64,000 nt of DNA from Ischnura elegans (taxonomy: Eukaryota; Arthropoda; Insecta; Odonata; Coenagrionidae), in contig NW_025791658.1 in assembly GCF_921293095.1 (NCBI RefSeq), positions 6,510,001 to 6,574,000 of the forward strand. Direction: 5' to 3'. The notes beneath the pieces were generated by a model that worked only from the letters and a program-made list of their open reading frames with translations, did not search any database and had not been told where the DNA came from. A program made the position numbers and the translations under genes. This document shows positions 13,191 through 47,200 of this stretch, in pieces (within the stretch, counting starts at the first letter, position 1; each line of letters begins with the position of its first letter).

Positions 13191-13521
13191 AATCCTTTAA
13201 GTAAGCGTTAATACTTATGTAAGCGAAGCGCTACCAGCTAGCATGGTACTCTGCTATCTGCTAGCATCCTGGGTCGTATCAGCGCTCAGAGCCTCGCCCC
13301 AAGGTCGCCTCACTTGCGGCAGCGAGAACCAGAAATAAGTCACACGGGAGTTTTCCCGGCATTCATACTTACCATCGCGTTTTCGCGCGCTTGAAATTTT
13401 CACTTTTCATAAAATTGCGAAAAATAGATATCGTCATTTAAAAATCTAAAAGTGTGAAATACGTATTCCAGGAGTAATAATCTATCGATTTAGGCAATAA
13501 AAAAATAATAGGAAACTACTC
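13190..13521 (-). mobile_element. TA-flanked MITE, half copy (f)
   Basis: Reverse-oriented partial copy of the 660-bp MITE described at 42,537. It keeps the end GGAAACTACTC and the core with CGCGTTTTCGCGCGCTTGAA; the other terminal half is missing. Confidence 0.8.
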
Positions 13522-13653
13522 TATTGTCTTACTGTAATAAATAAGAATTAAACTTACCTTAATGTTTACTGTGAAAAAAGGTTTATATATACTAATACTA
13601 CCAAACACGAATATACTAATTGTTTTGTAATAAAGGTCAATAATATGAAAGTT

Positions 13654-16600: not shown

Positions 16601-16966
16601 GGCGTTCGAGATGTGGGTATGGAGAAGAATGGAGAGGGTGAAATGGACAGAGAGGAAAAGGAACGGCGAAGTGCTGGATATGGTTGGCGAGGAGAGAAAG
16701 CTTTTAGATGAGATACGCAGGAGACAGAAGGTTTGGATGGAGTTAGTGCTTAGCGGTGAGGGGATGTTGAAAATGGTGTTGGAGGGTAGAATGTTGGGGA
16801 AACGAAGGAGGGGAAGGAAAAGAATAGGGTTTTTAGATAGATTGAAAGAGAGTAGGCATTACAGTGAATTAAGGAAGGCAGTGCTGGAAGGAAAGGGAGG
16901 CTCCCAGATCACCTCTTTAGTACTCCATGGAAACCTACCTTAATCGGTAGAATACTATAATAATAA
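13654..16966 (+). mobile_element. Full-length RTE-clade LINE, about 3.3 kb
   Basis: The element is bounded by a perfect 12-bp direct repeat AATATGAAAGTT (13,642-13,653 and 16,966-16,977). It ends with a short ATA/TAA tail, as is usual for RTE elements, which lack a long poly(A). The 5' leader (13,654-13,822) precedes one large reading frame for endonuclease plus reverse transcriptase. The paralogous locus near 49,840 is the empty site. Only one frameshift and one stop were found, so the insertion is fairly recent. Confidence 0.9.
13823..16943 (+). pseudogene. RTE LINE polyprotein (APE endonuclease + RT), one frameshift and one stop
   Basis: Domain order: lysine-rich leader with a serine run (14,010-14,035), APE-type endonuclease, then RT. 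Endonuclease motifs are NVGTWNVRTM, LCEVRW, MGDWNAS, YQIDYIMV and DSDHNLVL, so the catalytic set looks complete. RT motifs are YQFGFRKGKST, FVDFEKAFDRVNW (motif A), RQGCPLSPLLFNVY (motif B) and FADDQALIS (motif C; FADD instead of YADD). The tail has LYGAETWTLRKED. The frame shifts by one near 14,480-14,492, and an in-frame TAA sits at 15,456-15,458 just before the RT part. It resembles the RTE-derived part of CFDP2-like predictions. It nicks target DNA and copies its RNA there; this copy is not competent as read. Confidence 0.9.
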
Positions 16967-16977
16967 ATATGAAAGTT

Positions 16978-18010
16978 ATCGTCGCGAATGTAAAAATTTG
17001 TCAATTTTCCTTCCGCGCACACGACGAAATAGATGTTAGTAAATAGCTATCTGTGGAGCCCATAATTTGAATTTACTTCACTGGAATTGACTTGTTGAAC
17101 TGCAATAGCAAAAGGTGGTAAAACTGAACTTGCAAAAAATCTCAAGTGAAGTGGCGAAATTGGAAGGATTGCATAAATTATAAAACACACATACCTACGC
17201 AGGCGAAAATACAAATGCAAACAAGTAATAGCATTATTTGATGAACGAAAAATTCTGGAGTAAAATGGTGCAATGATGATGGCATGTTTGAAAAACGAAA
17301 ACGCATTTATTATGAATAAAAAAAACTACAATAGACCTCTGGACAAAATTTTAATTTGCCTTCAAATATGCTCAAAAAAATCAACAAGGATAAATATATA
17401 CGTAAAACGTTTATCATATGTAATAATTTTCCATGGAATGTTTTTTAATCGCAATAAAAGGAAGCTTTTCTCATCAGCAGACACTCCCACCTCAATACGT
17501 ATTTCCATTGGCTGACGGAAATATGACGTCAGCTCACAGCCATTCACACTTGGTGATCAAAAATTCTGAAGATATCGTAACAAAGGTTGCCAGCACAAAT
17601 AATGGAAGTAGAAATCTTATTTGTTCATGTAGAATATTATTGGTAAAAATTAAGGGTATGAAATTTTCAATATTCTTTAGTAATATTCCATTTAAATCTG
17701 TAATATCAGCTTAGGGAAACGCGTATGCTATGAAATCTATTTGGAACTGTCATCTACTCAAAGCCTAGGCCATGGCCACCTTTAATACAGGCCAGTACAT
17801 GTGAGGCACCATGGTGCCTTCACAGCTCGGCGTTGCGTACTTGGGGCGGAGCTATCGAGCTATTGGGAGCATCGCAGCATGTTAAGGTGTGACGTCACGG
17901 AAAACGTCACGTTTCCCGCATCGCTCCGGACGCTCCCGTGAAAACTAGGGTCTGCCCGCTTCGAAACTAAGTTAGCGTTCAATGGACCGCACCCTAGGAT
18001 GCGAGTTGTC
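16978..18010. other. Duplicated flank without a gene
   Basis: Parts of 17,260-17,640 match 49,960-50,100, extending the direct duplication. The rest holds no recognisable gene. A CpG-rich patch at 17,800-17,990 has no assignable feature. Confidence 0.5.
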
Positions 18011-18398
18011 AGGAGTTTTGCATCGTCTGAGATTACCAATTCATGCATGAGGCACAGAGCTCAGGGAAACATGTCTTAATAATCACCTATTAAAATTGCC
18101 TATGGTCCGAAAGTTTCCTTTCTTAGATAGGGCATTTATAATCCTTATTTAGCCAAGCACTACCTCCTAGCAGGGTACTCTACGCTACCGTCAAGCTCGG
18201 CAGCAAGAACCAGAATGATGTCACAAGGGCTTTTCCTAGCATTCATACTAAACCGTCGCGGTTTCGCCCGCTTGAAAATTTTCACTTTTCATTGAAACGC
18301 GAAAAATAAATGTGGTTATTTAAAATCTAAAATCGTGAAATACGTACTCCACGAATAATAATCTTTCGATCTAGGCAATAAAAAATATGAAACCACTC
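18010..18398 (-). mobile_element. TA-flanked MITE, partial copy (g)
   Basis: Reverse-oriented, truncated at its left side; ends AAACCACTC then TA. The core matches the other copies with several small deletions. Confidence 0.75.
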
Positions 18399-18399
18399 T

Positions 18400-19212
18400 A
18401 TTAAAAATATACTGAAATATTGTTACAAGTGAATTACGTTTGGTAAGTGAGCTAAATATTGTGCTACAGTTAACAAAAATAGATGTTTTTCAGGCTTTTT
18501 CCTACCTGATAAATATTTTGTTACATTTTGTCAAATCATTTGTCGGATTCCGTGATATTAGTTTATCATCTCTGGGAAAAATAATTGCTTTCCAACTGCT
18601 CTGGAACTCTTTTGAAACACAAAAATCTGTCATAGAACTAGTATGGGACTTATTTCCACTCATTTGTTCTAAAAATTGGAAATATGAAGAAATTTGTAAC
18701 ACATTTGTAATCCCCTTACGAACTCCTTCGTACCGAGTGTGTTCGTGCAGAACTTTTTACACATTTGGACTTCCTTTTGAACGATTCAACAGGATTTCCA
18801 GACGTCATTATTCGTACTGTAACTGCTGTGTACTAAGAAGATTGATTTTTAACTGCTTTCCATACGTTTGCAATTCTTTGTGAACAATTCCAATGCGATT
18901 TATAGACATCATCATTTGTTTTGGAGCTGTCTCCTACGCGACGACATACCACGGCCAAGTGATTTTTTTGCTCGAGAAAACGAAAATTCTCTAATATGTA
19001 TTTGCAAAGAAATCCATCATCGATTGACGAAATAATCGTAAGTAAGTTAAGGAAACGGATCTTCAAAATGTTCACTCGAATGAGTTTAAATAATAATAAT
19101 AATTCTATTTTCTTTGTAGCTTAAATCGTATTTTTGGGGCCGTTTTGGAATGCGACAAAATATCTTCACTACGTGCCGAGAATATTGATTGCGATAAATT
19201 TGGTATTCAGTA
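18400..19212. other. Open frames without recognised product
   Basis: A 147-codon plus-strand frame (18,440-18,883) and opposing minus-strand frames are present. Neither shows a domain I recognise, and no splice-supported exon could be built. Possibly a decayed transposon interior. Confidence 0.35.
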
Positions 19213-19873
19213 GGGTGGTTTCCTATAATTTTTTTATTGCCTAAATCAAAAGATTATTACTCCTGGAGTGCGTATTTCACGCTTTTAGATTCTTAAATGA
19301 CGATATCTATTTTTCGCGATTAAATGAAAAGTGAATATTTTTAAGCAAGCGAAAACGCGACGCGTAAGTAGGAATGATGGGAAAAAGTCCGTGTGACGCA
19401 TTTCTGGCTCCCCCCCCCCGCCTACTGAGGTGACCTTGGGCGAGGCTCTGAGCGCTGATACGACGCAGGATGCTAGCGGATAGCTGAGTACCATGCTATC
19501 TAGTAGCGCTTGGCTTAAAAAAGGTTTATTAATACCTTATCAAACGAAGAAAACTTTCCGACCTTAGCCAGTTTTAATAGGTGATCATTATGACATGTTT
19601 CCCTGAGCTCTGCGCCTCATGCATGCATTGGTAATCTCAGACGAAGTAGAACTCCTATCTACTCGTATAGAAACTAGGTCCCTGTGACGTCACGTAGAGT
19701 GGCATCGCATGGGCGCTAATCTGGCCTTTTCCAAATGAGGATAAAATTTGACCCTTGCCATTCGTCTAAAACGGTATTTCAAAAACCAAATAATTTGTGT
19801 ATTATGAATACACTAATGGTGGGTAAGGAATCGCAATCAATGCCTTTCGTTTTTTTTATGAAGGAAACTACCC
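19213..19873 (+). mobile_element. TA-flanked MITE, full copy (d)
   Basis: Begins GGGTGGTTTCCTATAAT after TA (19,211-19,212) and ends GGAAACTACCC. The right flanking TA is mutated to TC. Length 661 bp, matching copies a and b. Confidence 0.85.
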
Positions 19874-19879
19874 TCTTCC

Positions 19880-21095
19880 AAATCTAAAAATTTGTTCCAT
19901 TGCAGTTTGCAATGAAAATCAAAAGCAGTGCAAAATATGTTACACATGATTTAGAAAGGTGTACAAATGAGCGAATGACATGGTGGGACGCTATGATGCC
20001 ATGAAATGCTGTGTACCTCGTTTCAATTCCACAGTAGTATCTGGTAAATATTATATTATGTTTTGTCAAAAATATGTCGGTTTCTGTGATATTACTGTAT
20101 CATACATATAATCATGTTGTAAGTGCTAGTAGATGCCGTCCCCTCTTATCCCAAGCTTGGTACGAAGTGCACACCTCCTCTGCAGCTTTTCATTTATCCC
20201 AAATGCAGGAGCTCTCTCAGGAAATATATTTCGGTAAGTCATGGCACTAAATTGTTTAATGAGTGTCCAAAATGCCTGTTCAATACCAAAATGTCCGTAA
20301 GTCGTTGAAATTTTTAAAAATATTACCTCGACTAGCTGCAGGCGAAATAACAAGAGGGCCAATTTTTCAACGCGTTATCCCTGAAAACAACGCAATGCCT
20401 TCTAAATAACATCATACACCACATTTTATTTTATTTTCGTTCCATTAAGCACGAATACAATAACAGGCCCTTGATATCCACCACACCGATTAATTTATTC
20501 TACTCACAAAAAAACTTGCGAGATGTAAGAGGCCGGATGCTGGCTCGTCATGTTCCAAAGTACCTACCTAAGTATCCCACGCTCTCTCCGTTCTTTTCCT
20601 CTGCTTGCACCTTACCTGCACATCCCTCTGGTTTCCGGTCGCTCCTTTCCCACCAATAGGTACTGCAACATCAGCCTCACACGCCACGGCAATGGCAACG
20701 AATCGGAGAGGTGAATGCCGGTCACGTGGGGACGCCTAAGGTAGAGCAAGCAGCTTGGCAGCGGGCAGTCGACAGCGGGATGTAGACTGCAACATTTAAT
20801 TGGGATAAATAAAAGAATGGTCTTTCCCTTGGTCCCTTTACTTCCTCTGACGGACCAGAAGCGGTCGTAATTCTTACAGAGTATCTTATTTGTCTTTAAA
20901 TACTATTCCCATTGCGCCGTTGTGGAATATGGACGTCATGGATAAAATTTTTATTTGAAAACAAAAAGTCCCAGATTGATGTTAGCATATTTCGTACCAA
21001 TGCAGTTTCTTCTCATTTACATATTTTGGGACATCCTTTCGGATCAACATCAACGTCTCAACAGTCTTGTATTTACATTTCTTAAGTCTTGAAAG
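19880..21095. other. No gene seen
   Basis: A stretch at 19,890-20,040 weakly resembles the reverse complement of 50,630-50,800 (a diverged dispersed repeat). No coding exon is supported. Confidence 0.4.
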
Positions 21096-21506: not shown

Positions 21507-21821
21507 AGCAGGAGAACTATAAACGTTGAACATTACAACAAGGCGCCATTGATATATTGATTGATAGATGTTTCGGCCGTATTGGGTCAATTTCAGAGCG
21601 ATCTTTCATATAATTCTCTCCATCAATTCCCGAACTTACGATTTCGACTCCTCACTTGTTAGTAATTCTCCAGTATTTTGTTGTAAATTGGAAATTGCAA
21701 TATTTTTATACTTGTTGAAGCCATTGCACGGAACTCCAATTGTAAAAATATGCACGCACAGGAAGTACACCCGACCACAATTACAACAAACTCCCTGAAA
21801 GAACACCACACAGCATGAATA

Positions 21822-22380
21822 GGGTAGTTTCCTTCATCAAAGAAAACGAAATGCATTGATTGCTATTCGTTACCCACCATTAGGGTTTTCACATTTTATA
21901 AATTATTTGGTTTTAGAAATCCCAGTTTAAACGAATGACAATGGTAAATTTTAACCTCATTTGAGAAAAGCCAGGTTGGCGCCCACGCGATTCCACTCCA
22001 CATGACATCACAGGGACCTGGTTTCTACACGAGTAGATAGGAGTTTTACATCGTCTGAGATTATCAATGCATGCATGAGGCACAGAGCTCAGGGAAACGT
22101 GTATTAATAATCACCTATTAAAATTGTCTAAGGTCGGAATGTTTCCTTCGTTTGATAAGTAAGTAATAATGCATATTTGAGCCAAGCGCTACCTGCTAGC
22201 AGCCTGCGTCGTATCAGCGCTCAAGCCTCCCCCCAAGGTCACCTCACTTTGCGGCAGCAGGAACCAGAAATAAGTCACAGGGGCTTTTCCCATAATTCCT
22301 ACTTAGCCGTCGCGTTTTCGCGCGCTTGAAAATTATCACTTTTCGTTTAATCGCGAAAAATAGATATCGTCATTTAAAAT
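21822..22380 (-). mobile_element. TA-flanked MITE, truncated copy (e)
   Basis: Reverse-oriented copy starting GGGTAGTTTCCTTC after TA. It is colinear with the others until ATCGTCATTTAAAAT at 22,380, where the last 100 or so bases are missing. Confidence 0.8.
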
Positions 22381-22450
22381 GGCATAAAAGAGCAAGCACT
22401 CATCCTAGTGACTACCCTTGACAACTTCAGACATGATCACTTTTATAGAC

Positions 22451-23010
22451 CAGTGGTTCCAAAAGTGGTCGCTACCGCCCCCTGGGGGCGTTGCTGTAGT
22501 CTATGGGGGCGAAAAGTACCAAGGGGGCGACAGGAGGGCGCCGGAGGGTCCTGATAATGTGAAAAATCCGAAGGTACCGCAACCTATCTTTTGTCTTCGC
22601 TTCTAAAGTTTACTTTGTTTCCCGCATATGGAAGTCATTTAAACCATGTGTTTTCTTACATTTTAAATTAAGAAGGGTTGAAAATATTTCCAAGCCTTTC
22701 TTCAAGGTGGGGTATTAAAGGAAGAATTAATTGGACAAAAAAATGACATTGAATTGAAACCAAAGTTAAAGATAAATTATCAAGAGTTTTGGCTACGGAA
22801 GGAGATTTTCAATCGTTATCCTGCATTATGGATGGTGGTTAAAACACTCCTTGCATTTCCGACTTCGTATTTGGTGGAACGTGGTTTTAGTGCAGTCACT
22901 CACCTTATTCCAAGCAGAGAAACAGACTTGAGGTTTGCGAACGCGGTGATTTAAGACTTCTGCCAAGTGGCATTAAACTGGACGTTGGAAAACTTGTATC
23001 ATGTCGTCAA
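22451..23010 (+). pseudogene. hAT element remnant with transposase C-terminus
   Basis: A hAT-like terminus CAGTGGTTCCAAAAGTGG starts at 22,451. Downstream, 22,754-22,954 encodes the hAT dimerisation region with LLAFPTSYLVERGFSAVTH. After a frameshift near 22,940 the family's next block, GDLRLLPSGIKLDVGKLVSC, can be read. This is the ZBED5/SCAND3-like hAT lineage. The DNA-binding and catalytic parts are missing, so the element is internally deleted. The right terminus was not found. Confidence 0.8.
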
Positions 23011-23985
23011 GCTCATCCTTCTGATTAAAATTTTATTTGATGGATATATGTAATCAATTTTAGCAATGGAGTCTTCTTAAATGACTTCTAGACCATGAAA
23101 AATTATAATAAAAATTCACTTAATTGTTGAAATAATTTTAACAAAAATGATTTGTCGTTCTATTACTATAATTTGAAAATTTTCATGCTATATAATTGCT
23201 TAAATTATGATTCGGGATTCCCTATGACGGTTTTATGTCCCTAAAGGATCAAATTCACCTCGCCTGCGGTCAGAAAATGGGTTTATTTGTGGTATTTCGA
23301 TTGAAATTTTGGCCTAACTTGCCGCGAAATCAAAGGGGATCTGACGACGCAATCACTGGCGTTAATGCCGCGTGCATGTTTAGCCGCTTCGGAGACTAGG
23401 TTCACTTTCCGTTCCACTGCCACTGCTTGGCATACGGCGAATTACTGTTTTGGCGAAGAATTCTCAGGAAGAGACAGTTATCAACAATTTATTCATTTGA
23501 TGTATTCCTCACATTTATTAGCACGATAATAGAAACATCGGTGCTTTACCAATGAATCTTTCCTGCATTATCCATGGCTTAAAAATTCAAATGGGGAACA
23601 ATTTTGCATCTAAAATATTCTTCCCGCAGTGACAAGTGATCGTCGACTGAGTGTCGGACAGGAGGCACTAATTTTAATTCTTAAGAGCTATAGAACACGA
23701 AGCAGATAATTTAATTCACCGCACCAGATGTAGTTTATTTTTGGCGCCAAATTCGTCAACTCGCCGGTATAAAACGGAATTTAATCGAAGCATTACCAAA
23801 AACTTGAAGAAATGAAATCACAACGAATATTTTATGGGAAATAAAACCATTCCTTCAAAATGTTTGCATGAAGAACATCAGTTAGAGTACTGGGTATGCA
23901 TCACAGCGTTGAAGGATCAAATGGTGAGTCCTTCTGTATGTGTAGCATTTTATTGAAAAAAATACAAGTACAAACAGACCTGCAA
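23010..23985. other. No gene seen
   Basis: Some of this may belong to the hAT remnant; no right TIR or coding exon could be identified. Confidence 0.4.
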
Positions 23986-23987
23986 TA

Positions 23988-25008
23988 GGGTAGTTTCCTT
24001 CATCAAAGAAAACGAAAGGCATTGATTGCGATTTGTTACCCACCATTAGTGTATTCATAATACACAAATTATTTGGTTTTAGAAATACCGTTTTACACGA
24101 ATGGCAAGGGTCAAATTTTATCCTCATTTGAAAAAAGGCCAGATTGGCGCCCATGCGATGCCACTCCACGTGACGTCACAGGAACCTAGTTTCTATGCGA
24201 TAGGATATGAGTTTTACATCGTCTAAAGTTACCAATGCATGCATGAGGCACAGAGCTCAGGGAATAATGTCATAATGATCACCTATTAAAACTGGTGTTC
24301 GAATATCACTGCGCAACTGTTCGAGGCACGTCACATGCTGCTCGACGACTGACTGACTGAGCAGCTCTCACTTGCTTACGATCGCTCCGTGGATAAGGTT
24401 GTGTGGAGCGAGAGACTTACCTGTGGCCTCGACTACTCCAAGGAGAAGGCGTCGATCCGGCCACATGTGAAAAAGCTCTTTGTTGTAATGCTTTGTCAAT
24501 TTGTATCTTTATACCACGAATATACTTAGTTGTTTTATAATTAAGTGAAATTATTTCGATTATCTCAACCACAGAATACTAATCCTTAAAATATTCGAGC
24601 GTATTCCGAGATACTGGTTCCATTTGCAAAACTGCAGAATCGGCGCGCACAACTGGCTAAGGTCGCAAAGTTTTCTTCGTTTGATAATGTAATAATAAAC
24701 CTTTTTCAAGCCAAGTGCTACCAGATAGCATGGTACTCTGCTACCCGCTAGCATCCTGCGTCGTATCAGCGCTCAGAGTCTCACCCAAGGTCACCTCAGC
24801 AGGCGGGGGGGAACCAGAAATGCGTCACACGGACTTTTTCCCATCATTCCTACTTACGCGTCGCGTTTTCGCGCGCTTAAAAATGTTCACTTTTCATTTA
24901 ATCGCGAAAAATAGATATCGTCATTTAAGAATCTAAAAGCGTGAAATACGCACTCCATGAGTAATAATCTTTCGATTTAGGCAATAAAAAAATAATAGGA
25001 AACCACCC
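23988..25008 (-). mobile_element. TA-flanked MITE, full copy (c), interrupted by a solo LTR
   Basis: Reverse-oriented copy from GGGTAGTTTCCTTC to GGAAACCACCC, flanked by TA on both sides (23,986-23,987 and 25,009-25,010). Removing the insertion at 24,296-24,651 and one copy of its 5-bp duplication restores a length of about 660 bp. Confidence 0.9.
24296..24651. mobile_element. 356-bp solo LTR nested in MITE copy (c)
   Basis: The segment begins TGTTCGAATATCAC and ends GGCGCGCACA (TG...CA). It is flanked by the perfect 5-bp repeat ACTGG at 24,291-24,295 and 24,652-24,656. A single LTR with intact target repeats shows recombination between two LTRs deleted the internal part. The 5-bp repeat fits Gypsy, BEL or Copia; I cannot choose. 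Confidence 0.85.
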
Positions 25009-25097
25009 TATTTCCAGCCATGAGTGGTCATCCTTATAAAACGCAACACACTTATATTCGTAGGCAATGCTTGTCTGCATAGCATTCAGGATACGCT

Positions 25098-27593: not shown

Positions 27594-29239
27594 TTAAGAA
27601 TAAGGTTTCTCTTCTGCATGTGTGCGTACGTGTTTGGTAAGGATGTTCTTTCTAGAGAAAGACTTATCACAGATATTACAAGAAAATGGCTTCTCTCCGG
27701 TGTGTACAGGCAAGTGTTGGATGAGTGTGTCCTTTCTAGTGAAAGAATTTGCGCAATAATCGCACGAAAAAGGCTTCTCTCCCGTGTGTGAGCGCAAGTG
27801 TACAGTGAGTCTGCTTTTAGTAGGGAAAGATTTTGCGCAATAACTGCAAGAATAAGGTTTCTCCTTTTTGTGCAAACGCTGGTGCACCATGAGTGTGCTT
27901 TTAGTGGAGAAAGACTTGGCGCAATCACTGCACGAAAAGGGGCTTTCTCCCGAGTGTGTTTGCAAGTGGGAGGCGAGATGCGCACTCTGAATGAAACATT
28001 TGCGACATGTCTTGCACGAGAAACGTTTCTCTCCAGTGTGCGTGCGCAAGTGCCGGATCAGTATGCTTTTTCTAGTGAAAGACTTGTTGCAATCATTACA
28101 CGTAAACGGTTTCTCTCCGGAGTGAGAGCGTATGTGGTCGGTGAGATGTGATCTTTGACGGAAAGGTTTACTACATATCCTGCATGAGTAAGGTTTCTCT
28201 CCCGTGTGCGTAGGCATATGCTGAGTGAGGTGAGCTTTTGTGGCAAAAGACTTGCTGCATATTCCACACGGATGTTTTTTCCCCGTGTGCGTATACATGT
28301 GATTGGCAAAACTACCTCTCAGTGTGAACGACTTATTGCACAAACGGCAATTGAAAGGCCATCCTTTTGTGCCTCCTACTTCGTGATTTTGGAGGTTACT
28401 AGCACAAGAGGTGGACTTTGAGGACTTATTTTTTGTGTGTTGTTTCCCATCTCCACCAGAACTTCTCATTCGTTCCACAGTTTTCTTCTCTCCCATTCCA
28501 CCAGAGATTCTTGTGACAGGCGTTTTTACTTTTTGCATCGGCCCTTCTCTTTTCCTTTTCAATCCTATTAATGTCTCAGAGGTGGTTGATGACTCACAAG
28601 AATTACTACTTTCTTCTCTTGATGCAGGGACTGTTAAAGACTCATCTTTTCCAATAAATGATTCATCATTAAGATTTAAATTGCTGGCACCAAAATGAAT
28701 TTCCATGTGTTTGATCAGATCATCATTGGTGTTGAATCTATATCTGCAGTGGGAGCAATGATATAACTTTTCGTTTGATTTGAAACTACTACTAGGATTT
28801 TTGATCTGGCAATTACTTATCTCTTCTTTGTCTTCCATGACTGCCTCAATGCCACTTCTTCTGCTTTCACCTATTCTGATTAACCTCAGGCTATCTGTGA
28901 TATTTGGTGCGTCACCTATACCCCCAACAACAGTCATTGTGGCTCCACTGTTTCCACTGTTTTTAGATGCTGGAATGTGATTCTTATAACTTTGTGCATA
29001 GTCAGGAATTGAGTTATATGTTATCTCATCAGCATGAAGAGTATTCCTTTCTTCAAAATCTCTATCTATCACATTCCTTCCATTCTCCACATGGAATCCT
29101 ACAGCCTTTGATTGAAATTGCTTCACTGAGATGGATGGAGCAATGCAGTCATTGCTAACATCAATTCTTACATTTCTTCCCTTCAGCATACATGAAGTTG
29201 GTGTTGTTTCCATCAGCACTTTGTCAGGAGTTGACAGCC
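27594..29239 (-). CDS. Terminal exon: ten C2H2 zinc fingers
   Basis: The exon starts after TTTTCCAG at 29,240 and joins the phase-1 donor at 34,667 to give [11 protein letters not shown]. It encodes about 210 residues of linker with serine-rich and lysine-rich patches, then an isolated finger (CSHC...HMEIH, about 28,765-28,695). A basic spacer follows, then nine tandem fingers from 28,355 to 27,600. Eight or more have the C-x2-C-x12-H-x3-H spacing. Links are TGEKP in most cases, with KKEKP and SGESP as variants. The protein stops just after a final AEEKPYS link, as if a further finger had been lost. An acceptor at about 29,258 could also be used but breaks the phase. Confidence 0.95.
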
Positions 29240-32200
29240 CTGGAAAAGAAATTCCTATTACGAATTTCTGAGTCAAAAAGGAAATCTAGGACTCATTTAC
29301 CTAATTAAAAAAAACATTTGATACATAAAGACTTAGACCTTTCAAAAAACCTTTAAGCTGACTACTATGCAAGCAGAAAAGGAGTCAGTCTTTTCTGGTC
29401 ATTTAAATATTGTTACAATTTTGTCTAACATGAAATGCAGTCATCAATAATTATCACACATCTAGCTTAAAGTTGCTGAAGAAAAACCAAATCAGGCCCT
29501 TTAAAAGATTTGCTCATTTAAAAGACAAAAAATGTTTGTTTAGTGATTTTGTATTACACATACTGTTATGTTCCTTAAGTTGATATTTAAAAATGGCAAA
29601 TAATTTTTCACTTACAGAATACTCTAGGATAGACCAATGTTTTTGATGGTAAATACATTAGTATCCATTTAAATGATAAGCTTTAGTAGAAGTAGAAGTA
29701 TTCAGGTGTGCATCAATAAAAATATTGAGTTTTTTCATCCTCCTACACAAGAGCACAACAGTAAATTTAAATTGTAACGGGTATTTAGATTGGAGAATGA
29801 CTCCTGGAAGTTTGGAGATGAGAGCAGGAGGGAGGTAATAGGGCTAATAAAAACTCAACAATTTTTATTGTTTGTAATAATAATAAGATCCTTTTAGTAA
29901 GTAAATCATGAAGTAATGTGAATTTTTTTGTTGCCATTTATAGTGTTGCTATTTTTGGGGTATTCTTGGAGCGTATTTTTGAATGATGAATGTATAAATC
30001 CGTAATCCAATCCACAAAAGGTTCTAAAAATCCCATATTCTTTTTTATACCTTTGTTCGTTGTCCCCACAATTGGGGAGATAAGTATTGATAGCCACGTA
30101 CATCGAGTGTATGAATGTAATCTTGCGTTTTGTTTCTTTATTATGGAGTGAATGTGTAGAGACTTTTGAACACAAAGGATCGATTGGTGAACCGCAGGTC
30201 TGCATTAGAGGGGCTGGTCATCCCTGGCCGTGGGCTAGAAGGAACCTGCCTTTGCATCCAATGTCTGACCACATAGGAAATAAAGGATGGGTGTTTGTGT
30301 GATGTGCAGACTGCCAGCCTGACCGATTTGGATTCCCGCCGGAGAGCAGTACTCCCTTGTTGCAGCCGGAATGCGTCGTCTGCTAGTATAACGTTGCTGC
30401 TGCCATCTGGGAAAACTGCAGGAGGGAAGAGCTTGGTAAGCCGTTGCTCTCTTTGCCTTTGAAGTTCCAAGGAACAACATCTCTCCTTAAAATGTGCTCT
30501 GATACTGAAAGTCATTGTGTGGTGGTTTGTGTGTGCCGATACAAGTGTGATTTGGTTTGAGGTATGTGGCTAGAGGCTATTGTGAATTCATTCTTGAATT
30601 TTCCTATTCGCAATTTCTTTTGGAGTACCCGAATGTGGGATATTCAATTCTTTGCACATTTTTGTCTGAATTGCTTCCAATTCATTGGCATTTGTGCAAG
30701 GTCCGTAGGGCCACGTGTCTTTTATGCAAGAGCTATTTCTTTTGCCTGTGGGTTGGATTATTAATGGTCTGATGTGGAAAAAATGCATTATTGTGGTGTT
30801 TTTTGTTCTGCATCACATTAAAGATAAATAAATTTCCTCAATTTTGTTACTGCGTATCACCAAAATTGTGTATTTTATTGATGGACAGGAGGAAGTCTGG
30901 AGAACAGTTTTTTTCTTTCATCCTTATCTTAATTTCTCCACTGTTGGCTATCTGTGAGCCCAAGTGGTGGATGGGACTCTGGTCGAATAAGACTAGTAAG
31001 TATTGCCAGACGAGAGGCCCCATTACAAAATCTGTAAGTATTATTAATCCTTGAATGATGAAATTGCTACAGAATTTCAGTATGATTTTGCTTTGGTGGG
31101 TACTAATTGTGACACCAATAAGGAAATAATTTTTAATTAGTTACGTAGCAACTGATATCACATATTCCATGGAAGAGGTGACAATTCTTGCATTTTTATC
31201 TCCAAATTCACAACATATTTTCAGTGAAAAAGAAGGAATAAAACCACCATGAATCAAGTCTGAGATGATTCAAGTATGATTAAAAAGTAAATTTCTTAAA
31301 AAATCTAAATTATTCCCTTATATTGTCCATTTGGGACCACCATTGTAAAAGAATGTTATAAGGGTAACATTAACATTTTTCCAGGTTGACTTATCACTAT
31401 CACCTAAGTGTCGAGTAACGTCCCACTAACATACTTTTCCGTTCAAAAATTAAAACAATAAATTCTCAACGAACTACTGGTACACGGGCTGAGAGCAAAG
31501 GGTTGAAGTGTAAAGCCACAAGATTATTCTTATGGAAAATAAATTACTTACAGCCATACCATATTAACCCAATATTAACCCAGCCATAACCCAATTTATT
31601 CAAACTTATAATTTCTGCACTCAATTTGGGTTGAGCGGCAAAATACTTACAATCATGGAAAAAAATAATGGCAAGGTTTCACCACTCATGAAGCGGTGCA
31701 TAAAACTACAGGCCTGAAACCTTCAATAATTAGAAAAACTAGCGTGGCCTGGATGCCCACTATCATAATTCTTTAGAACTACAACATCAAACTGTCCCAC
31801 ATAACATGTTAAAATTGAGTTGTGCTGTATCTTAGCTGTATTTATTTCTTTTATAGAGTTTAATTCTGTATTCCATATTACATCCTATTCGTTTCTAATT
31901 CCTAAATATTTTCTGACATGATTCACTCTTCAACCTAGCCAAGTACAGTTGTTAAGCCCGAAAAAATAAATGAATGAACAAAATTATGGAATCGCATATG
32001 AATCCTTCACAGCCATGAATACTGTATGTCACTAAATCATAAATGAAATTTTACTAGTCAATGGCCAAACAAGTTAAATAGCAATAGACTTCAAAAGAAA
32101 ATATTTTACTTTAAAAGAACTTATACTTTAGACAAATGTAAAAAGATATTATAATAGCACAGTTCTGCAAAAAAATTGTTCAAAAAATGCCTGGCTACAA

Positions 32201-35200
32201 TTTAGGGTGTTTCTGGCTAATTTTGTGTTGCTGAATTCGAAAATGACCTCCGATTTTTTCTATCACCCTCCATTCTTTCGAGCAACCCCTAAATTGGGGA
32301 AAACAACCCCTTATCTAAACTTATCGCTTTTCAAGGGATGTTCACTAATGTTATCTGCTTCTGATTGAAAAAAAACTGACGTTTTAAGGCTATCAGGGTC
32401 AGGAAAGAGATAAACTTGAAAGGGTTTGGGGTTGAAAAGATATAGGGGGTGAAAATTGAAAAAAAAAACCTTAACAAAACATAAAAATAACCATTTATCT
32501 TCGCTTTTTATGACATATGATATGGTAGCTATTAGAAAAGTTTTTAAGAGATGAATACACCCCATTTTGTAAAGGATTAATACAGCATAAAATATAAGAG
32601 GGGAAGGGGGGTATACGAGTGGCATAGAAAGTGGTATAAAGAGCTGCCAAAAAAATCTGAATACAAATCAGATTTGTCAACATATTATTGTAACAGCGTT
32701 TGGGGGTTCATGATTTGACTTCGTTGTCCTCCTTACTTTTGAAGTAAGAGCTGACACCTTTCCATTAAATACATTGAAAAATGCTCGGAAATACCATGGG
32801 AAAAATTGGGAAATACACAGTAAAAGTTACTCACCACATGTTTTGACACGCTTTGACACGTTTTAACATGTTTTCATGTGTCTTGGCAGTCGCACTTGCT
32901 GATGTTCATCTATTAAATAAACCAGTGGTCTAATCAGTACGTCACACTTTTTCCTGCATGTCAGATTATAATGTTCCAAGTTCTTTCTTTATTTTTCTTG
33001 CGTGTGTTTGATTTAGCATGTTATTTTGCAAGCGATAAAGTGTTTTCTCACGATCATTCCACGATCTTGCAAAAATCACCCCAATTATTTTGTAACACCT
33101 GTAGAGATTTAGTGTTTAAAGACGAAAGGAAAGCGATAACTGCAACTGTGTAGAAATCTAATGACCTTTATTTCGGGTGTAAAATTGGTGACCTCGACAA
33201 ATCGTGGGCCCCTAAATTCTGTTTGAAGTGGTTGTCATAGAAGTATTTGTGAATGGCTTAACTGGGGAAATCGTTCCCTAAATCTTGGAGTGCCAATGGT
33301 TTGAGTTGAACCCACTTACCGTTTAACGGATTGCTATTTTTGCCAAACTGACACCATGGGTTTAAAAAAAAACAATCCTGAAATGATTTATCTGAATTTG
33401 CCGTCAGCAATTCGCCTGCTGAAGCATAGTGATGATATTCCTATCCCTAAAGCTCCAGCAACAAGCACCCTCGATGATTCTGATGCCTTAGTGAACGAAG
33501 CTACACTGGAAGTGGAAGCAGGTGTTAGCCACCGAGATGAATATTACAGCCCTGATGTAGAAGAACCCCAAACTAGTCAAAAAGGGCACCTCATCCCATA
33601 ACACGAGGACCTAAGTGATCTAATACAAGATTCAAACTTAACAAAGAGTAAAGCACAACTTCTTGGCTTGCATTTGCAGCAGTGGAATCTTTTAGCCGAT
33701 AGGGTGAATGTTTCTTACTACAGAGGCAGACAGTCAAATCTTACTCAATTTTTTTCAACAGATGATGAAAATGAAGATCTGATTTTCTACACTGATATTG
33801 AAGGACTGATGAGGGAATAAGCGATTACGAATGATCCAGACCAATGGAAGCTATTCATCGACTCGTCGAAGACAAGTTTAATGGTTGTTTTACTGAACAA
33901 CGGCCACGATTTACCTTTGGTTCCTGTTGGATATGCCACTGTTTAAAAGGAAACCCATATTCTAGATTTTTGTGGCAGCTCTTTATACCACCTCCTAAAC
34001 CCCCTCCTATACCACTCGTAAACCCCTCTTATATTTTATGTTACATTAATCCTTTACAAAATGGGGGGATGAAGAGTGTATTTGTCCCTTAAAATCTTTT
34101 CTAATAGCTACTATATCATATGCAATAAAAAGCGAAGAAAAATGGTTATTTCAATGTTTTTAAAGCTTTTTTTTTCAATTTTCACCCTCTAAATCTTTTC
34201 AACTCCAGTCAAGTTCATCTCTCTCATGACCCTTAAAACATTAATATATATATTAAAATATAAATATAAAATTTGTAAAAGTCCCTTGAAAAGCGATAAG
34301 TTTAGATAAGGGGTTGTTTTCCCCAATTTAGGGGTTGCCCGTAAAAATGGAGGGTGACAGAAAAAGCGGAGGTCATTTTCGGATTCAGCGACCCAAAATT
34401 AACCAGAAACACCTTAAATTGTAGCCAGGCATTTTTTGAACTATTTATTTTCAGAACAGTGTAATTATAAACAATGCATTAAATTTTACATTATTAGAAA
34501 TCAATAATTACCCAGAAGTGAAGAAAAATATTCTCTTTTATTTAAAACCAAGTTAACTAAAGTAAACAAAAATTACACATGGATGACTAACTTAGGTCCT
34601 TAATCCTTCAAAAAAGTTCCGACAACTTCTCCACACATTTAATTGTAATCCTTTAAATGCACTCACCTGTAGCCTCGGCCGTGGAGTCATTGGTCATTTT
34701 CCAATCATCAATCAGATTTTCATCCTTGGTAAACGTAGGCTGAAATTAAGAATCAGCATATTTATCATGATGGCACAGGATTTTTAACATTATTAAAGGA
34801 AATTATCAACTGCTACTGAATTTAAAACCATATAATATTAAAATTAGAATTTTTCCACAGAAATATTTTGTTTTACAAAATAGAACTATCTTCCACACAT
34901 TCAAGAACAAGGTGATCCTTCCTTAAAACTTTTGCGGGTGCTTGTCATTATGAATAAAAACTATTGGGCTATATCGCCACGTCAATTCTTGGGTGGCCCC
35001 ACATTTCCCGACCGATGCTAGTCGCTTTTTCAAGGGATTCTGAAAAGTTGGGACTTTAAATTCTTTTATACAGGTAACTGTGTTAGGTGGTGGGGGAAAG
35101 GGCGAGGGAGGTTGGAGGAGTGCGTTGTTGATTATGTTTTCTCACTACAGGTTGCCAAATACGGCTAATTCTAATGCTGATGTCACTGTCGAAATTGTTC

Positions 35201-38200
35201 TTTTCTTCTTTGGGATATTTCCATGGCTTCTCTGATGAGTCTCAGTTTAAAACCTTTTAGTCTTCCGACTAGTCTAGAAGTTTTCCGTCTTCCTCTACCT
35301 CCATTGTAAAAATGTTGTCTTTAATCCTGCTTAAATAAGTTAAAATTATTGAAGCTTTTCCTTTCCCTGTGTCCAAATTATAAGTGTCGTCGATATATCT
35401 GACCCAAATCTTAGGCTTGTGGATTACTGTTTCTTCTACGTGTTCCATAAATATGTTTGCAATTGCTGGGGAGAGAGGGGAACCTATCGCTCCTTCAGAC
35501 ACCTGTAGATAAAAATTATTCCTCCACCAGAAGAAATTGCTCTCAAGGCAAATCTCTGCCAGTTTTGCGATTTTTTCTCCAAATCTGTCTTTGATGACAT
35601 TTACCGCCTCCTCACAAGGAATATTTGTGAAGAGCGATGCCATGTCAAAACTGACTAGGAGGTCTTCTTTTTTGACCTTGATGCCACTACTATTCCAAAG
35701 AAAATGTTGCAAGTTTTTCACGTGTGACTTTGCCTCTTCTACTGCAGGCCGTAAAATCGGTGCCAGGTACTTTTGCTAATTTATATGTTGGTGAGTCAAT
35801 GGCGCTGACAATTGGCCTAAGGGGCACTCCTTCCTTATGAATTTTTGGCAGGCCGTAGATGCAAGGAGTTTTCGGATCCTGTGGGTTGATTCTTCATCTT
35901 TCGGCGGGATTCCATACATAAGTCTTTATTATTTCTGTCACCATCCTTTTGTACTAACCTCAAGGAAGCCAAAATCCTTGCCAAAGTTAAAGGTTTTAAA
36001 CAGAGACTCGTCAGAGAAGCCATTGAAATATCCAAAGAAGAAAAGAAAAATTTCAACACGGACACCGGCATTAAAATTAGCCGTACTTGGCAACCCATAG
36101 TGAGGAAAAACAATCAGCAACCCACTCCTCAAACCTCCCGCTCCTCTTCCCCCGCTACATGACATGGATACCTATATACAAGAATTTAAATTCCCAACTC
36201 TTCAGAATCCCTTGAGAAAGCGACCAACATCAGTCAGCAAACGTTGGGGCCACCCAAGAAGGGACACAGTGACATGTCCCAAAAGTTTTTATTCATAATA
36301 ACAAGGTAATCTTTTAATAAAGTAACACATCACAGCCAACAAATTAAATCTCAGAGTAAAAAAAAAGCAACAACTCTTACAATTTGGCCCTCGATACAAC
36401 TGGAAAAAGCTATCATTATAAATAAAATCATTCATTTACAAGTCAATGGCCTAACAAGTTAAATAGCAACATCTTCAAAAGAAAATATTTTACTTTAAAA
36501 GAATTTATACTTTAGACAAATGTAAAAAGATTAAGAAGAAATAATTATATACATTGCAGTAAATTTTACATTATTAAAAATCAATAACCACCCAAAAGTA
36601 GAGAAAAATATTATCTTTTATTTAAAACCAAGTTAACTTAAGTAAACGTAAATTACACATGGATGACTAATTTAGGTCCTTCATTCATCAAAAAAGTTGT
36701 AACTACCTCATGATTCATTAATTGTTCACCCAAACTCAGACCTAATCAAGATCAGTAACACATTAGCCCTACACCATCAGCTGAACAAGAATTGATTACC
36801 TATACATATAACAGTAGTTAGTAATGCTACCACCAAATTACGGTAGGCACTTTTGGTGAGGATATGATTAGATGGAGTGTGAAGAACAGAATAAAATGAT
36901 CATTTTGCAACAATGAGAGTGATAATGCACACCATAGAAGCTTCTGCATATATAAGAGGAGATTTTCCAGCAAGATAAGTTAAGTTATTGACAAAGTTAT
37001 GCAATTTCCTCTTGGGCTTCATTTGTCAGTAGATTGCGACTGCAGCTTCAGAACTCTATTTCAGTCGCATCTATCCTCGTCAGCTCTTGGTGCTCTAAAG
37101 GCAAAGGATAATTGGACAACACATGATATAAATGCACCGCCAGGCATTTGCCCAGATTAAGTTCCACCTTTCTCCTCACATGAAAGTTGTTTAAATCTAA
37201 TGATAGAACCTAAACGTCAGAGCGAAAACTATTTTGATATCTATGATATCTTCATTAGCAAATAAGTGTATTTTACTGCTAAATCCAGAGCAAAGGTCAG
37301 AGATGTATACAATGAACAAAAAGGAGCTGATTGCACTACCCTGCAGGACAAAAGATGCATGTTTCTGATGAATGATGTTTGGAAAGTTCCAGGGAGGACT
37401 GAATTTTTTGTGATAGCAAACCTGCACATAACATGGAAAAAGCTCACTTACCAAGTCATGAGTTGCCAGAGGGTCTGAAGCCTCACTTGAAATTCCAACT
37501 GTATTCGGCGAGTTAAATGCAGGATAATTCCCTTCACTGAGGAGCTGTTCGTTTTCCTCTTTCACAGTGCACTAAAAGAGAATGTTGAGTGTCAATCAAT
37601 AAAAGCAATATAATAATCAAGAGAATTTAAATTTAAGCAATAAAAGTTAAATTATTGATAAAGTTATGCAATTTTCTCTTGAGCTTCATTTGTCACAAGA
37701 GTGCAACTATAGCTTCAGACCTCTATTTCAGTCTCATCTGTCCTCGTTAGCTCCTGGTGCTCTGAAGGCAAAGGATGCAGGTTGATAATGTGCCAACCTT
37801 GCAAGCTTTCACTGACCCAGCTCAATCAGTTACGTGGGATTTGCTCAGATTAAGTTCTATGCCCCACTCTTATCTCCTTAAATGAAAGTATTTTAATTCC
37901 AACGACTTAGTTTAAAAGTTAGAGTGAGCATTATTTTGCAATTTATGACATCTCCATCATCAAATAAATGTATTTTACTGCTGATTCCGGACCAGAGGTC
38001 ATACATGAATGTAATGAAGAAAATGGAGCAGATTACACTAACTTGTGGGACAACAGATATGAGCTTCTGCTAAATAATGTTAGCAATGTTCCATCAAGGA
38101 TAGGTTTGTATCAGAGTACAACTGAATCACTTAACAATGCAAAAGTACACTTACCAAGTCATGAGTTGCCAGAGGGTCTGAAGCCTCACTTGAAATGCCA

Positions 38201-41200: not shown

Positions 41201-44200
41201 TAGGGATAGGAAATTTTATACATTTATCTGTTTTCTATGGAACAGTGACTTGCAAATATAAGATATGGTTTTATTTACGATTAAATTTTTTATTCATAAC
41301 CTTGGACACATATTATATGCTTTACAAATTTCATTCAGGATATCGGCTTTTTGTTGTTGGTTTGGACATATTTCACAATACATACAGTTATGGGTTATGT
41401 CATTGTTTCATAGTAATAATAATGATTTATTGGGAATAAATAATGAACATCTTACCCAAATCAGTTTGTCTGATGTAAGGTGTATACTATGCCAAGTAAT
41501 CATTGGAAGCTATATATGCTTGAAGCTCTTTGTGATTGTGTTAGCTTTCTAAGTCTTGTTTATTTTTGCATGTCAAAATAAATATATGTCAACTTTTCTT
41601 GTGTTGCTCCTGAGGATATAGCTTACTGGATGAACTAGCTTTCCTTTCTTATGAAAGCTTTATATTTTATGACTCGCTAAATTTCAGTATTTATTTTTGT
41701 TTAGGAAATTTAGTAGGTTACGACGTTACAGCCATGCTTTCTTGTATTGTGATGGAATAATATTTATGTTTCAGTCGTAGATGAGGAAAAAGCAGGAGCA
41801 GGTGATGATTAATTTACTGTCTGTAAAAAAAAGCAAGATACTCGAGTTTGAGGAGCTCTAGCATCTAGACGAAGCAATCGATTTCAGTGCAATAAAAAGC
41901 ATACCAAAGAGAATTTAGTTCTATGTTATATCATGTACTTTAAAAATTCTTCCGCTAAATAGTATTTCCTGTACTTAATTTTTTCTCAAAAAAGTACCCG
42001 TTTTTTGCGCGTAAAATCAAGGTGCCCAACTTTGAGCGCTTGGATTTCCGCAGTTTTTGTTCCTATAACTTACAATTTTGATGTAAAGAAGCCACATCTA
42101 TTACTAGCAGTTTGTTGAAAACAAATTTTTTATACCACAAAAATTAACTAAGTTGTTGTAAACAACGCAAACCTCTGCTAACTTAAGTTAAGTCTCGAAA
42201 AATCAATTTAATTGACTCACTGGTTTCGAAGTTTTATAAACCACCAGATCGGGGAATCCCGCATAACCTTCCACAGTTTTATATGCCGGGAAAGCCTACG
42301 ATCATTCTTCAGGTTAACACAAGCTTAAAAAAATTCAAGAATTGGCGGGAATTGACCACATAGAGGATGTTTTCCTCGCACACAAAGTGTTGAAATAAAT
42401 GGTTGATATGAATGCACCGCTGAAAGTTTAAACTATTTGTAGTAATCCTTTGCAATAATTGTTATTCTTTATGTACTGTTGATGAACCAAGCTTGTGCTC
42501 CACATATTAAGCTTGAATGTTAACGTCTACACAATAGGGTGGTTTCCCATTATTTTTTATTGCCTAAATCGAAAGATTATTACTCCTGGAGTACGTATGT
42601 CATGCTTTTAGATTTTTAAATGACGATATCTATTTTTCGCGATTAAATGAAAAGTGAAAAATTTCAAGCGCGCGAAAACGCGACACATAAGGAGGAATGA
42701 TGGGAAAAAGTCGTACGACGCATTCCTGGTTCCCCCTCCCGCCTTGTGAGGTGACCTTGATCGAGACTCTGAGCGCTGATAGGACGCAGGATGCTAGCGG
42801 GTAGCTGAGTACCTTGCTGGCTGGTAGCGCTTGGCTTAAATAAAGATTATTAATACCTTATCAAACGAAGGAATATTTCCGACCATAGGCAGTTTTAATA
42901 GGTGATTATTAAGACATGTTTCCCTGAGCTCTGTGCCTCATGCATGAATTTGTAACCTCAGACGATGTATAACTCCTATCCTCTCGTGTAGAAACTAGGT
43001 CCCTGTGACGTCACGTGGAGTGGCATCGCATGGGCGCCAATCTGGCCTTTTTCAAATGAGGATAAAATTTGACCCTTGCCATTCGTCTAAACCGGTATTT
43101 CAAAAACCAAATAATTTGTGTATTATGAATGCACTAATGGTGGGTAACAAATCATAATCAATGCCTTTCGTTTTCTTTGATGAAGGAAACTACCCTATTC
43201 TCTAAACTAATTAAATATTCATCACGCAGGCTGCAATTGTTTAATTAAAATAAAGCAGATTTCATTTTATTCTTAGATATTATTCCATGTTTTTAACGTG
43301 TGATTAGGTTACTTCAATCTCAGAAAAAACAATTCGACAACACAATGTGCACGTTATACAGGGTGTAATACGGAATAGCCTGCTTCGGGGAACAGTGTAA
43401 CATCATTTCACCCCTACTGCATGCAATTTACCGTTCAGAACACTGAATTGCACCAGTGCAGTAGATATTTTTATACATATATATATATACTTATAATTAC
43501 ACCTTCCGATGCAATTGAAACACAGATTACACCCAATTAGAATATTGTATTGCAACAGGGGAGCAATATGCTATATTGCGCTACCCAATATGCTAACAAC
43601 TGAAGAGTATGTTAGTCATTTACCAGCCAAACTTGAAGATGTGGAGCAGAAGAATGATGCAAAACTGTGTAAGGAAGCCAACAAAGAGAAATTATCATTA
43701 CTGGAAGAAAATAAAACTTGGAAACTATGTGAAATGCCTGAAGTAAGACTACCTATTGATGCAAAATGGTTCTTGAAAATGAAAAAAGATAAAAATTAAA
43801 AAAAAATCAAGATACAAAGCACGATCAGTCATCATGGGATGTGCTAATGACAAGGACTTGATTATGATGAAACATATGCCCCTTTTCCTTGACTTTCAAC
43901 ATCTACAGTTTTTATGTAACTGTCTGTAATTACTCTTTTAGCTGCAGTAGTACATGATTTTAACTAACACCCTATGCAGTAGAGAACCGATAAATATCCT
44001 TCCCTCTAGCCTGCCCGAGTGTCTCGCGAGGAATGAACTCTTAAAATTCAGGCAAACCCTTCTTTCTTTCTTACCTAAGAATGGGCCTTCATTAAGGCAC
44101 TTGTCATAGGCGTATTAACAGCATGGAACAGGAAGGAAACGATACGAAATGGGCAGTAAGATAGGAAATGCTTGGAGGCATTCTGCACCTTTGGGGATGG

Positions 44201-47200
44201 CTGGGGAGAGTTAAGTGGCATTAGCGAACCCTAGGGTGAGGAAAAGTGCATTTCCGCTCCACCTAGGCAGCAATAAAATTTTTGGGAAATTGCCATAGGC
44301 AGTCGAGCAATGGTCAAACCTTAAAAAACGTTTTCCCAGAGGTCAGCATATGACACAATTACAAATGATCCTGCAGACTAAAGGTTAACCACACATCATT
44401 GGTTTCACGTCAAATGGATATCAAGAATGCATTTTTGCAAAGGAATTCAAAGAATGAAATATTCATGAAACCGCCAGCAGGAGTTTCTGTCAAAGGAAAC
44501 TTGGTGTGCTAACTCCATGAACCATTGTAAGGACAAAAGCCAGCCCCCAAGGCATGGAATAGCTGCATTGATAACTAAGTACAAAGCCTTGGTTTGGTTC
44601 ACTCAAAGCATGATAAATGTCTTCTTGTCTACACTGAGGTAGCTACGTATTGTGATTTATATTCTACTTCATGCTGATGATTTGCTTATCGGCTGAAAGA
44701 GTGATGAAGAGTTTAGTCTTGCGAAAAGGAAACTACTGGAATATTTAAGATGACTGATCTGTAGAATTTAAAATTCTACCTAGGAATTAAGATAGACATG
44801 AATAAACCTAGTGCGTACTTATCTTAATAGAAGTGCCTGGGAGATATGCTGAGTAGATTTAATATGTCTGATGGCAAATCGCCAATTGAAGAAAAATTTT
44901 GTGCTACTGATTTTGAGAATGAGCCTACAATAACTGACAAACCACAAAATGACCTCATTGGATGTTATACGTACTTGATGTCTATTTCTAGAAGTTAATT
45001 GTCTCTGGGTGTTGCTTCATTTAGAAAGTATCAGAAAAGACCCAGTGTAGGACTATGGAGAGATCTTAACACATTCACGTTCTTTTTTTTGTCTCTTCGG
45101 TTTACGCCAAGTAGTACCAGGGATCTCTGGGAACAACACCAGCGTGACACCAATCGGCATCAGCCCTAGTGAATGTGTTCAAAGAGCACTTTGGTATATT
45201 AAAGGTGCACTTGATTGCAAGTTTTTTCCAAGGAATGATTCAGCCCTGAGTTTTTGCTGATACCGAATGGGCTGAATACAGTTTCATAAGATGAAAAGTC
45301 TACATTGGGTTTTGAAGTGGAAGCATTTCACTGCACTGTGTCACGGAGTACAAGAAAACAGTCAATTGCATCAATATCCTCAACAGAAGTGAAACTTATC
45401 AGCGAAGGTTTTTGTGAGATACAGTGGACAATTCCAGTTTTAGAAGACTTGTGTATAGATATAAAAAAGCTAACAACCATATACGAGGATAACAGTCCTG
45501 TTTTCACAAATTGTTGAAACATAAGCACTGTAGAATGAAAAATATATGTAGTGGTGAAGTAATATTTTCTCTTGGATCTATTTCAGAAAATGACTTTTAG
45601 AAGACTTGTGTATAGATATAAAAAAGCTAACAACCATATACGAGGATAACAGTCCTGTTTTCACAAATTGTTGAAACATAAGCACTGTAGAATGAAAAAT
45701 ATATGTAGTGGTGAAGTAATATTTTCTCTTGGATCTATTTCAGAAAATGACTTTTAATGCAAAATATGTGAAACTGATACAACAAAAGGCTGATATGTTT
45801 ACTCCCTAAATTAGTCACAAGAATTGCCAAGTTGGGAGGATGTCAATATAGCAATTTGCAATTAGTTGGTTGTCACACAATAGGGTGGTTTCCTATTATT
45901 TTTTTACTGCCTAAATCGAAAGATTATCACTCCTGGAGTACGTATTTCACGCTTTTAGATTTTTAAATGACGATATCTATTTTTCGCGATTAAATGAAAA
46001 GTGAAAATTTTTTAGCGTGCGAAAACGTGACTCGTAAGTATGAATGCCGGGAAATCTCTCCATGTGACGTATTTCTGGTTCCCGCTGCCGCCCTGTGAGG
46101 TGACCTTGAGGCGAGTTGAGCGCTGATACAACGCAGGCTGCTAGTGGGTAGCTGAGTACCCTGCTGGCTGGTAGCGCTTGGCTTAAATAAGGATTATTAA
46201 TACCTTATCAAATGAAGAAAACTTTCCGACCATAGCCAGTTTTAATAAGTGATTATTAAGACATGTTTCCCTGAGCTCTGCGCCTCATGCATGCATTGGT
46301 AACCTCAGACGACGTATAACTCCTATCTTCTTGTGTAGAAACTAGGTCCCTGTGACGTCACGTGGAGTGGCATTGCATGGGCGCCAATCTGGCCCTTTTC
46401 AAATGAGGATAAAAATGGACCATTGCCATTCGTCTAAACTGGTATTTCTAAAACGAAATAATTTGTATATTATGAATACAGTAATGGTGGGTAACGAATC
46501 GCAATCAATGACTTTCGTTTTCTTTGATGAAGGAAACTACCCTATTGGTCATTTATGATTTTTTTCCTAACCAGTTGGATTTAAATTTAGTTGGAATTGA
46601 ATATAAAAAGTGTAAGCTCTATTGTACATGCATCCTCTCATTAAACTGTTTGAAAAAGGTAACTTCACAATTGGGACCCTTATTGATGCTCACAATACAT
46701 ATTTCATCAACAAACATCTCAATACCTAACAAAAGAAATTCACCACACAAATCCTCTTTAAATAATAACATATATTTCGGTGTTTTTTTTGCTATGACAG
46801 TATTAAAAACCAAACTTCCCAAATAATAACACCAAAACTTAAGAAACAGAATATAAATCATAAAAAAATTTATAAATGGTTTTTATGTGTGAAAAAAAAC
46901 TAAAAATTATAATTCAAGAAGTGATATAGATGGTGTTAGCAAAATGTATAGCAATTTGATCAAAAATGATGCAAATTTATTATCCTAATGTGGCAAATAA
47001 CAAATAAACGAAACAGCTGCAAAAATAATACACCACATAAATTTAAAAAATGTTTTCTTATCAATGTATCTTTTGATTTTACAGGATATATTTTGCATTA
47101 TAAAAATTATTTTTAATACTGGGCCACTTTTCCATTTCATGCACCAATCTTCCATTTATAGAATAACCCTTCAGAAGGCAAAATGTTTTTTTTAAATATG

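Follow-up and report, generated by a model that had tools for sequence, protein, structure and literature searches.

Structure of the element and its insertion site

The window analyzed here is a stretch of 64,000 nucleotides from Ischnura elegans (assembly GCF_921293095.1, contig NW_025791658.1, positions 6,510,001 to 6,574,000). It carries an element of 2,304 bp (window positions 32158-34461), in which inverted ends of about 505 bp enclose the broken relic of a gene (Table 1). We consider it highly likely (probability about 0.88) that this element is a non-autonomous deletion derivative of a cut-and-paste DNA transposon of the Chapaev/Chapaev3 type (CMC), as judged from sequence comparisons. 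A preliminary description of the window had attributed the relic to a cryptic arthropod protein family which is repeatedly predicted as host genes. This protein is best read as the element's own Chapaev/Chapaev3-type transposase, which is truncated in the family represented by the copy in the window (hereafter, the window family).

The terminal inverted repeats (TIRs) pair at positions 32149-32663 versus 34470-33958 with 81.5% identity over 530 columns, which agrees with the TIRs of about 500 bp reported in the preliminary description. The limits given there (32148..34470) enclose a real TIR element but need to be moved inwards to those stated above, as the leading TAG belongs to the target-site duplication (TSD) and is not the terminus. 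The TAG which precedes the window copy and the TAA which follows it are the target duplication, with one base decayed. The terminus of the window copy reads CACAGTTCTG; that of the majority of the family copies which were printed reads CACTGTTCTG. The terminal sequence in the majority of these copies is CACTGTTCTGCAAAAAA, with TTA or TAA just before it, and the element ends are CAC...GTG. The duplicated empty site, which had been noticed at 36.4-36.7 kb, was recovered as well: it aligns to both flanks joined, with the element absent and with small indels in the left flank beside the junction.

Three blocks (NLPSAIR, KWAP-like, and LFIDSSK) had been named for the relic, and all three could be located: the NLPSAIR block at 33305-33601 (plus strand), the FIDSSK block close to the right TIR (Table 1), and the WAP block in a different frame (within 33088-33222, frame +1). 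The blocks are spread over two frames and are interrupted by stops.

Table 1. Features of the transposon copy in the window and of the corresponding empty site
Feature	Position	Strand	Basis
Left TSD, TAG (decayed from TWA)	32155..32157		Flanks and empty site; TWA throughout the family
Left TIR, start CACAGTTCTGC (CACTGTTCTGC in most printed copies)	32158..32663	+	
Transposase relic, truncated and frame-broken, corresponding to residues 1-291 of an intact protein of about 560 residues	33056..33958	+	tblastn, E = 7e-45
FIDSSK block, presumed to hold the first catalytic Asp on an RNase H-like hairpin	33821..33946	+	Putative fold assignment
Right TIR, last bases ...CAGAACAGTG	33958..34461	-	
Right TSD, TAA	34462..34464		
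Paralogous empty site, single target TAA at 36542-36544	36415..36709	+	

Copies of the element in the genome and their target sites

The genome which was searched comprises 1.72 Gb in 110 contigs. The search with the window element returned 762 first-look candidates, of which 40 places were scored, so that the copy counts are lower bounds. All 40 match the window element, and in 16 of them (the window copy included) the match extends across about 2,300 of the 2,323 bases, with 83-100% identity. When the query carried more than 100 bp of flank per side, the near-complete matches other than the window copy still started and stopped at most about 15 bases from the element ends. This confinement of the matches to the element, despite the flanked query, indicates the boundaries of the mobile unit. 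Two copies of the window family are only 18.6 kb apart (G000:C19:87383339-87385630 and C19:87401910-87404201). They have an identical query range and score, and are thus probably the result of a segmental duplication rather than of two insertions.

Both ends were available for 25 loci. One of these was a duplicate of another locus with short flanks and was dropped, which leaves 24 distinct copies. The central W of the TWA is identical on both sides in 21 of the 24 copies (binomial P at 0.5 = 1.4e-4), and an exact TWA is present on both sides in 17. An A precedes the TWA in 20 copies, and a T follows it in 19. The length of the target repeat, which the preliminary description had left to be determined, is therefore 3 bp (TWA).

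An automatic duplication scan (lengths 2-12, offsets 0-13, 2,156 combinations) was blind to this 3-bp duplication because its anchor lies one base inside the duplication. The top-scoring combination in that scan (12 bp long, offsets 2 and 10, z 3.8) was taken as noise. A 7-bp duplication (ATTATAA) is plausible by eye at the window copy; the other copies do not have it. Spy elements lack a TSD and insert between AAA and TTT. An insertion of this type, without duplication, was dropped once the 3-bp TSD had been seen.

Intact relatives of the relic protein

A query of 41 residues around the FIDSSK block yielded 702 candidates, of which 150 were scored; all of these match (at least 150 matches), and two of the loci yielded longer parts of the protein. 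With a query of 198 residues from one such locus, 150 of 2,399 first-look candidates were scored and at least 151 matches were obtained; in many of them, the match is free of stops and the frame stays open for 382-609 codons.

Three intact copies (loci L063, L064, and L065) encode proteins of 568, 558, and 563 residues, as aligned. Compared to L064, sequence identity is 52% for L063 and 46% for L065. All three genes lie within elements bounded by CAC...GTG, and at each element the two flanking triplets agree (TTA or TAA). The search for these ends required CAC/GTG, a flanking TWA, and at most 3 mismatches among 13 TIR positions. Because TWA was itself required, the independent evidence at these loci consists of the agreement in W and the match between the TIRs. 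The 315-bp TIRs of L064 (95% identity) were found without the TWA requirement. The elements have a size of 2.6 kb (L063) and 2.8 kb (L064).

Both elements belong to multi-copy families. Nine further matches to the L063 element show 98-100% sequence identity; eight of these have both boundaries and one starts internally. An exact 3-bp TSD is present in all nine L063-family copies that could be assessed, L063 included (eight times TWA, once ATA); T follows in 9/9 and A precedes in 8/9. An empty site is found about 8 kb away (GTACGG-TAA-TCAGTC). For the L064 element, eighteen further full-length matches (96-97%) have common boundaries.

A TWA-CACWG end is located 211-342 bp downstream of the protein match in five of seven further loci (L067-L072, L074; L073 was omitted as a copy of the L064 subfamily), where base shuffles predict 0.35 hits overall; the pattern had been noticed before it was counted. 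At one further locus (L061), frames resembling reverse transcriptase or RNase H from other elements (3453-4229, plus strand, and 1479-1892, minus strand; recognized by eye) interrupt or flank the transposase gene.

It is practically negligible as an explanation that the protein represents a host gene family next to which inverted repeats occur by chance. Although long open frames are kept in some copies, the many copies with shared boundaries, the target duplications, and the two empty sites speak against a host gene. The preliminary description was right that the element is mobile; the search for other copies which it had proposed gave the 40 matching places reported above.

The window family as a deletion derivative

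The relic aligns to residues 3-291 of the intact L064 protein with 34% sequence identity (for the E-value, see Table 1), and it stops where the right TIR begins. Among the 60 window-family loci that were fetched (51 distinct places by coordinates), the protein match stops between residues 281 and 293 in 55 cases; in the remaining five, it reaches residues 303-339, the longer ends being taken as chance extension into the TIR. Since the truncation point is common to the loci, the window family is, on this comparison, a deletion derivative with a common breakpoint. That the protein breaks near the same residue across the family also ties the relic to the mobile element, as had been proposed. The relic ends before the second catalytic acid, the C(2)C, LH, and H(4)H motifs, and the final Glu, so that the window family lacks all of these.

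Coding constraint was assessed on 40 distinct relic copies, 20 of the 60 loci having been dropped as duplicates or because they do not span the relic. In the majority sequence, the longest open run has 129 codons and that frame contains 10 stops; 13 of the 40 copies are free of stops inside this run. Pairwise differences are nearly equal at the three codon positions (0.073/0.066/0.076) and thus give no sign of coding constraint. A Pfam-A search with three pieces of the relic and a PADLOC search with one piece returned no match.

Long-TIR non-autonomous derivatives of cut-and-paste transposons are similar in that they have long inverted ends and are moved in trans, but differ from the window copy, which retains a recognizable half of the transposase gene. 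Gene capture, that is, a TIR element of another class having taken up a fragment of this gene, would account for the relic being a fragment and for TIR bodies which are unlike those of the fetched intact elements. We regard it as very improbable, given that the intact protein occurs in elements whose ends and target site are of the same kind, and which form multi-copy families that are 96-100% alike.

Probable assignment to the Chapaev branch

The element had been described as being of uncertain class. Its mobility stands, and three features now point to the Chapaev branch of CMC as its class: ends of the form CAC...GTG, a TSD of 3 bp (TWA), and the presence of C(2)C, LH, and H(4)H in the intact protein. 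In PMC4079192, Chapaev termini are given as CAC and GTG, the transposase motifs as C(2)C, LH, and H(4)H, and the Chapaev3 duplications as TWA between A and T (A-TWA-T). The Garfield_BM transposase is described there with 556 residues in an element of 2,289 bp. The intact relatives resemble the Chapaev3 elements Garfield, Merrow, and Conan of that description in their ends, in TWA being located between A and T, and in a transposase of about 560 residues (558-568 vs. 556 in Garfield_BM) with all three motifs; in size, they have 2.6 and 2.8 kb compared to 2.3 kb. The window copy differs in its TIRs of about 505 bp and in retaining no more than the N-terminal half of the transposase.

Motifs were tallied for 13 loci of the family, among which L061, L064, and L073 represent one subfamily. 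C(2)C is present in 12/13, LH in 13/13, and H(4)H in 11/13 loci. The first presumed catalytic Asp is found in 11/13, with Arg in L071 and Glu in L074 instead (decayed loci). In the three intact proteins, an N-terminal array of Cys and His is invariant (C15, C18, H56, C59, C62, H91, C95, C98). An N-terminal Chapa zinc finger is described in PMC4411706. Weak similarity to zf-AD was detected below the cut-off of 28 bits (L065, E 0.0032, 18.1 bits; L063, E 1.3, 9.8 bits).

Profile searches with the three intact proteins were otherwise uninformative: no Pfam-A model reached its cut-off (E up to 10), and no NCBIfam model was found at E up to 1. PDB sequences (E up to 10) gave nothing convincing, and no relatives were found in viral contigs, genome contigs, plasmids, or phages. 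A single pattern match in the genome contigs (L066, Arthrobacter), with an E-value of 0.002 at best across 28 residues, was taken to be due to chance.

EnSpm/CACTA, Mirage, Transib, and RAG1 (CMCT) share C(2)C and H(3-4)H between the second D and E as well as 5'-CA..TG-3' ends with the elements studied here, and C(2)C and H(3-4)H are reported for the EnSpm/Mirage/Chapaev/Transib/RAG1 group as a whole (PMC12730594). The TWA target and LH instead fit the description of Chapaev3, and a Pfam search of the three intact proteins (E up to 10) detected no CACTA domain (Tnp2-type), although distant members could escape it.

PIF/Harbinger (PHIS) elements likewise have 3-bp TWA target duplications. It is nevertheless extremely improbable that the element is of this type, with the protein being its transposase or its second open reading frame: the ends are CAC, the C(2)C and H(4)H motifs are present, and no Harbinger-type or other transposase domain was found when the three intact proteins were scanned with Pfam-A (E up to 10), although a distant relative could escape such a search.

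Several observations weigh against the Chapaev/Chapaev3 assignment. It is based on ends, TSD, and motifs, and Chapaev transposases were compared by their printed description, not by sequence alignment. The TWA was recognized by inspecting the printed ends and was then recounted by script, the automatic scan being unable to score it. In the window family, an exact TWA duplication fails in 7/24 copies and the W differs in 3/24 (L010, L015, L019); in the L063 family, there is the copy with ATA, and it is L063 itself that lacks the A before the TSD. Two of the seven divergent loci do not have a TWA-CACWG end. The TIR bodies of the window family (about 505 bp) are unmatched in the intact elements (13 fetched protein-coding loci), only the outermost 18-23 bp or so resembling some of them (L067 and L065; L071 by eye), and no autonomous partner sharing the entire TIR was found among the fetched loci. 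On the protein side, the presumed second catalytic Asp is present in 10/13 loci, with Glu in the other three, all from the L064 subfamily. Candidates for the final Glu are E508 (9), E511 (10), and E521 (12 of the 12 loci with data). A zinc ligand is lost in some decayed loci (L062, L067, L071). Pfam hits are below threshold only, namely an RNase H-like one (L064, E 0.17), the zf-AD ones given above, and unrelated weak ones.

The replacement of Asp by Glu at the presumed second catalytic position was read in L061, L064, and L073 (G000 C3, C12, and C11; 3/3). Although eighteen full-length copies share 96-97% identity with L064, the enzyme of this subfamily may be dead, with its elements being mobilized in trans; alternatively, the replacement may be tolerated.

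A rival reading is that of a distinct, undescribed lineage in the CMC/Transib group, whose likeness to Chapaev3 would be confined to ends, target site, and motifs. The lack of Pfam-A and NCBIfam hits for the three intact proteins, the likeness to Chapaev by description rather than by aligned sequence, and the Glu in one subfamily would be consistent with it. We consider such a lineage unlikely because the ends, A-TWA-T, the three motifs, and the protein length all fit Chapaev3 as printed. It is doubtful, too, that the protein family is a separate CMC/Transib-like lineage which is abundant in this genome, accepts either D or E at the second catalytic position, is missing from curated libraries, and is systematically mistaken for host genes in annotations.

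Proposed mechanism and implications for annotation

Under the Chapaev/Chapaev3 assignment, an autonomous transposase would bind the TIRs via its N-terminal Cys/His-rich region. A DDE site in an RNase H-like domain, in which C(2)C and H(4)H would provide zinc ligands as in RAG1/Transib, would cut both ends, and insertion of the element at TWA would involve cuts staggered by 3 bp. The copies of the window family occupy independent sites with TWA duplications, and their gene is already broken in the majority sequence. The 2.3-kb family presumably lost most of the catalytic domain; a full-length relative may have supplied the enzyme in trans and thereby spread this family. Neutral decay of its copies would have followed.

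With a cryptic protein being assigned to a named kind of transposase, for which ends and target have been measured, gene predictions which contain these blocks become recognizable as transposons. The element is a known kind of DNA transposon, and the main value of the analysis is that it points to an annotation gap. As no Pfam-A model reaches its cut-off on the three intact proteins, annotation based on Pfam will probably continue to list them as genes. Because the relatives share zinc-ligand motifs with the Transib/RAG1 group, well-preserved families (e.g., that of L063) are useful comparison material.

Other features of the window

A reverse transcriptase frame is encoded on the minus strand at 34941-36305 (RVT_1, E 7e-11, 35269-35775), with inverted arms of about 318 bp (83%); we take this element to be Penelope-like. 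Another element-like stretch (7349-9892) has inverted ends of about 367 bp (94%), the arms of which contain GTAGGGTGGTGCGAAAAAAC. It is perhaps the first long-TIR element of the preliminary description, in which the element analyzed here was listed as the second. LINE-like frames are present at 13814-16940 (plus strand), where an endonuclease (sub-threshold Exo_endo_phos hit) precedes RVT_1 (E 5e-37). An open frame of 563 codons at 27597-29285 (minus strand) codes for many C2H2 zinc fingers, and a fragment of a Copia-type gag gene is found at 2-724 (minus strand; Retrotran_gag_2, E 3e-19). Finally, several copies of a dispersed repeat occur in both orientations (13208-13527, 17999-19887, 21817-25012, and 42529-46547), with matches of up to about 680 bp at 72-94% identity.

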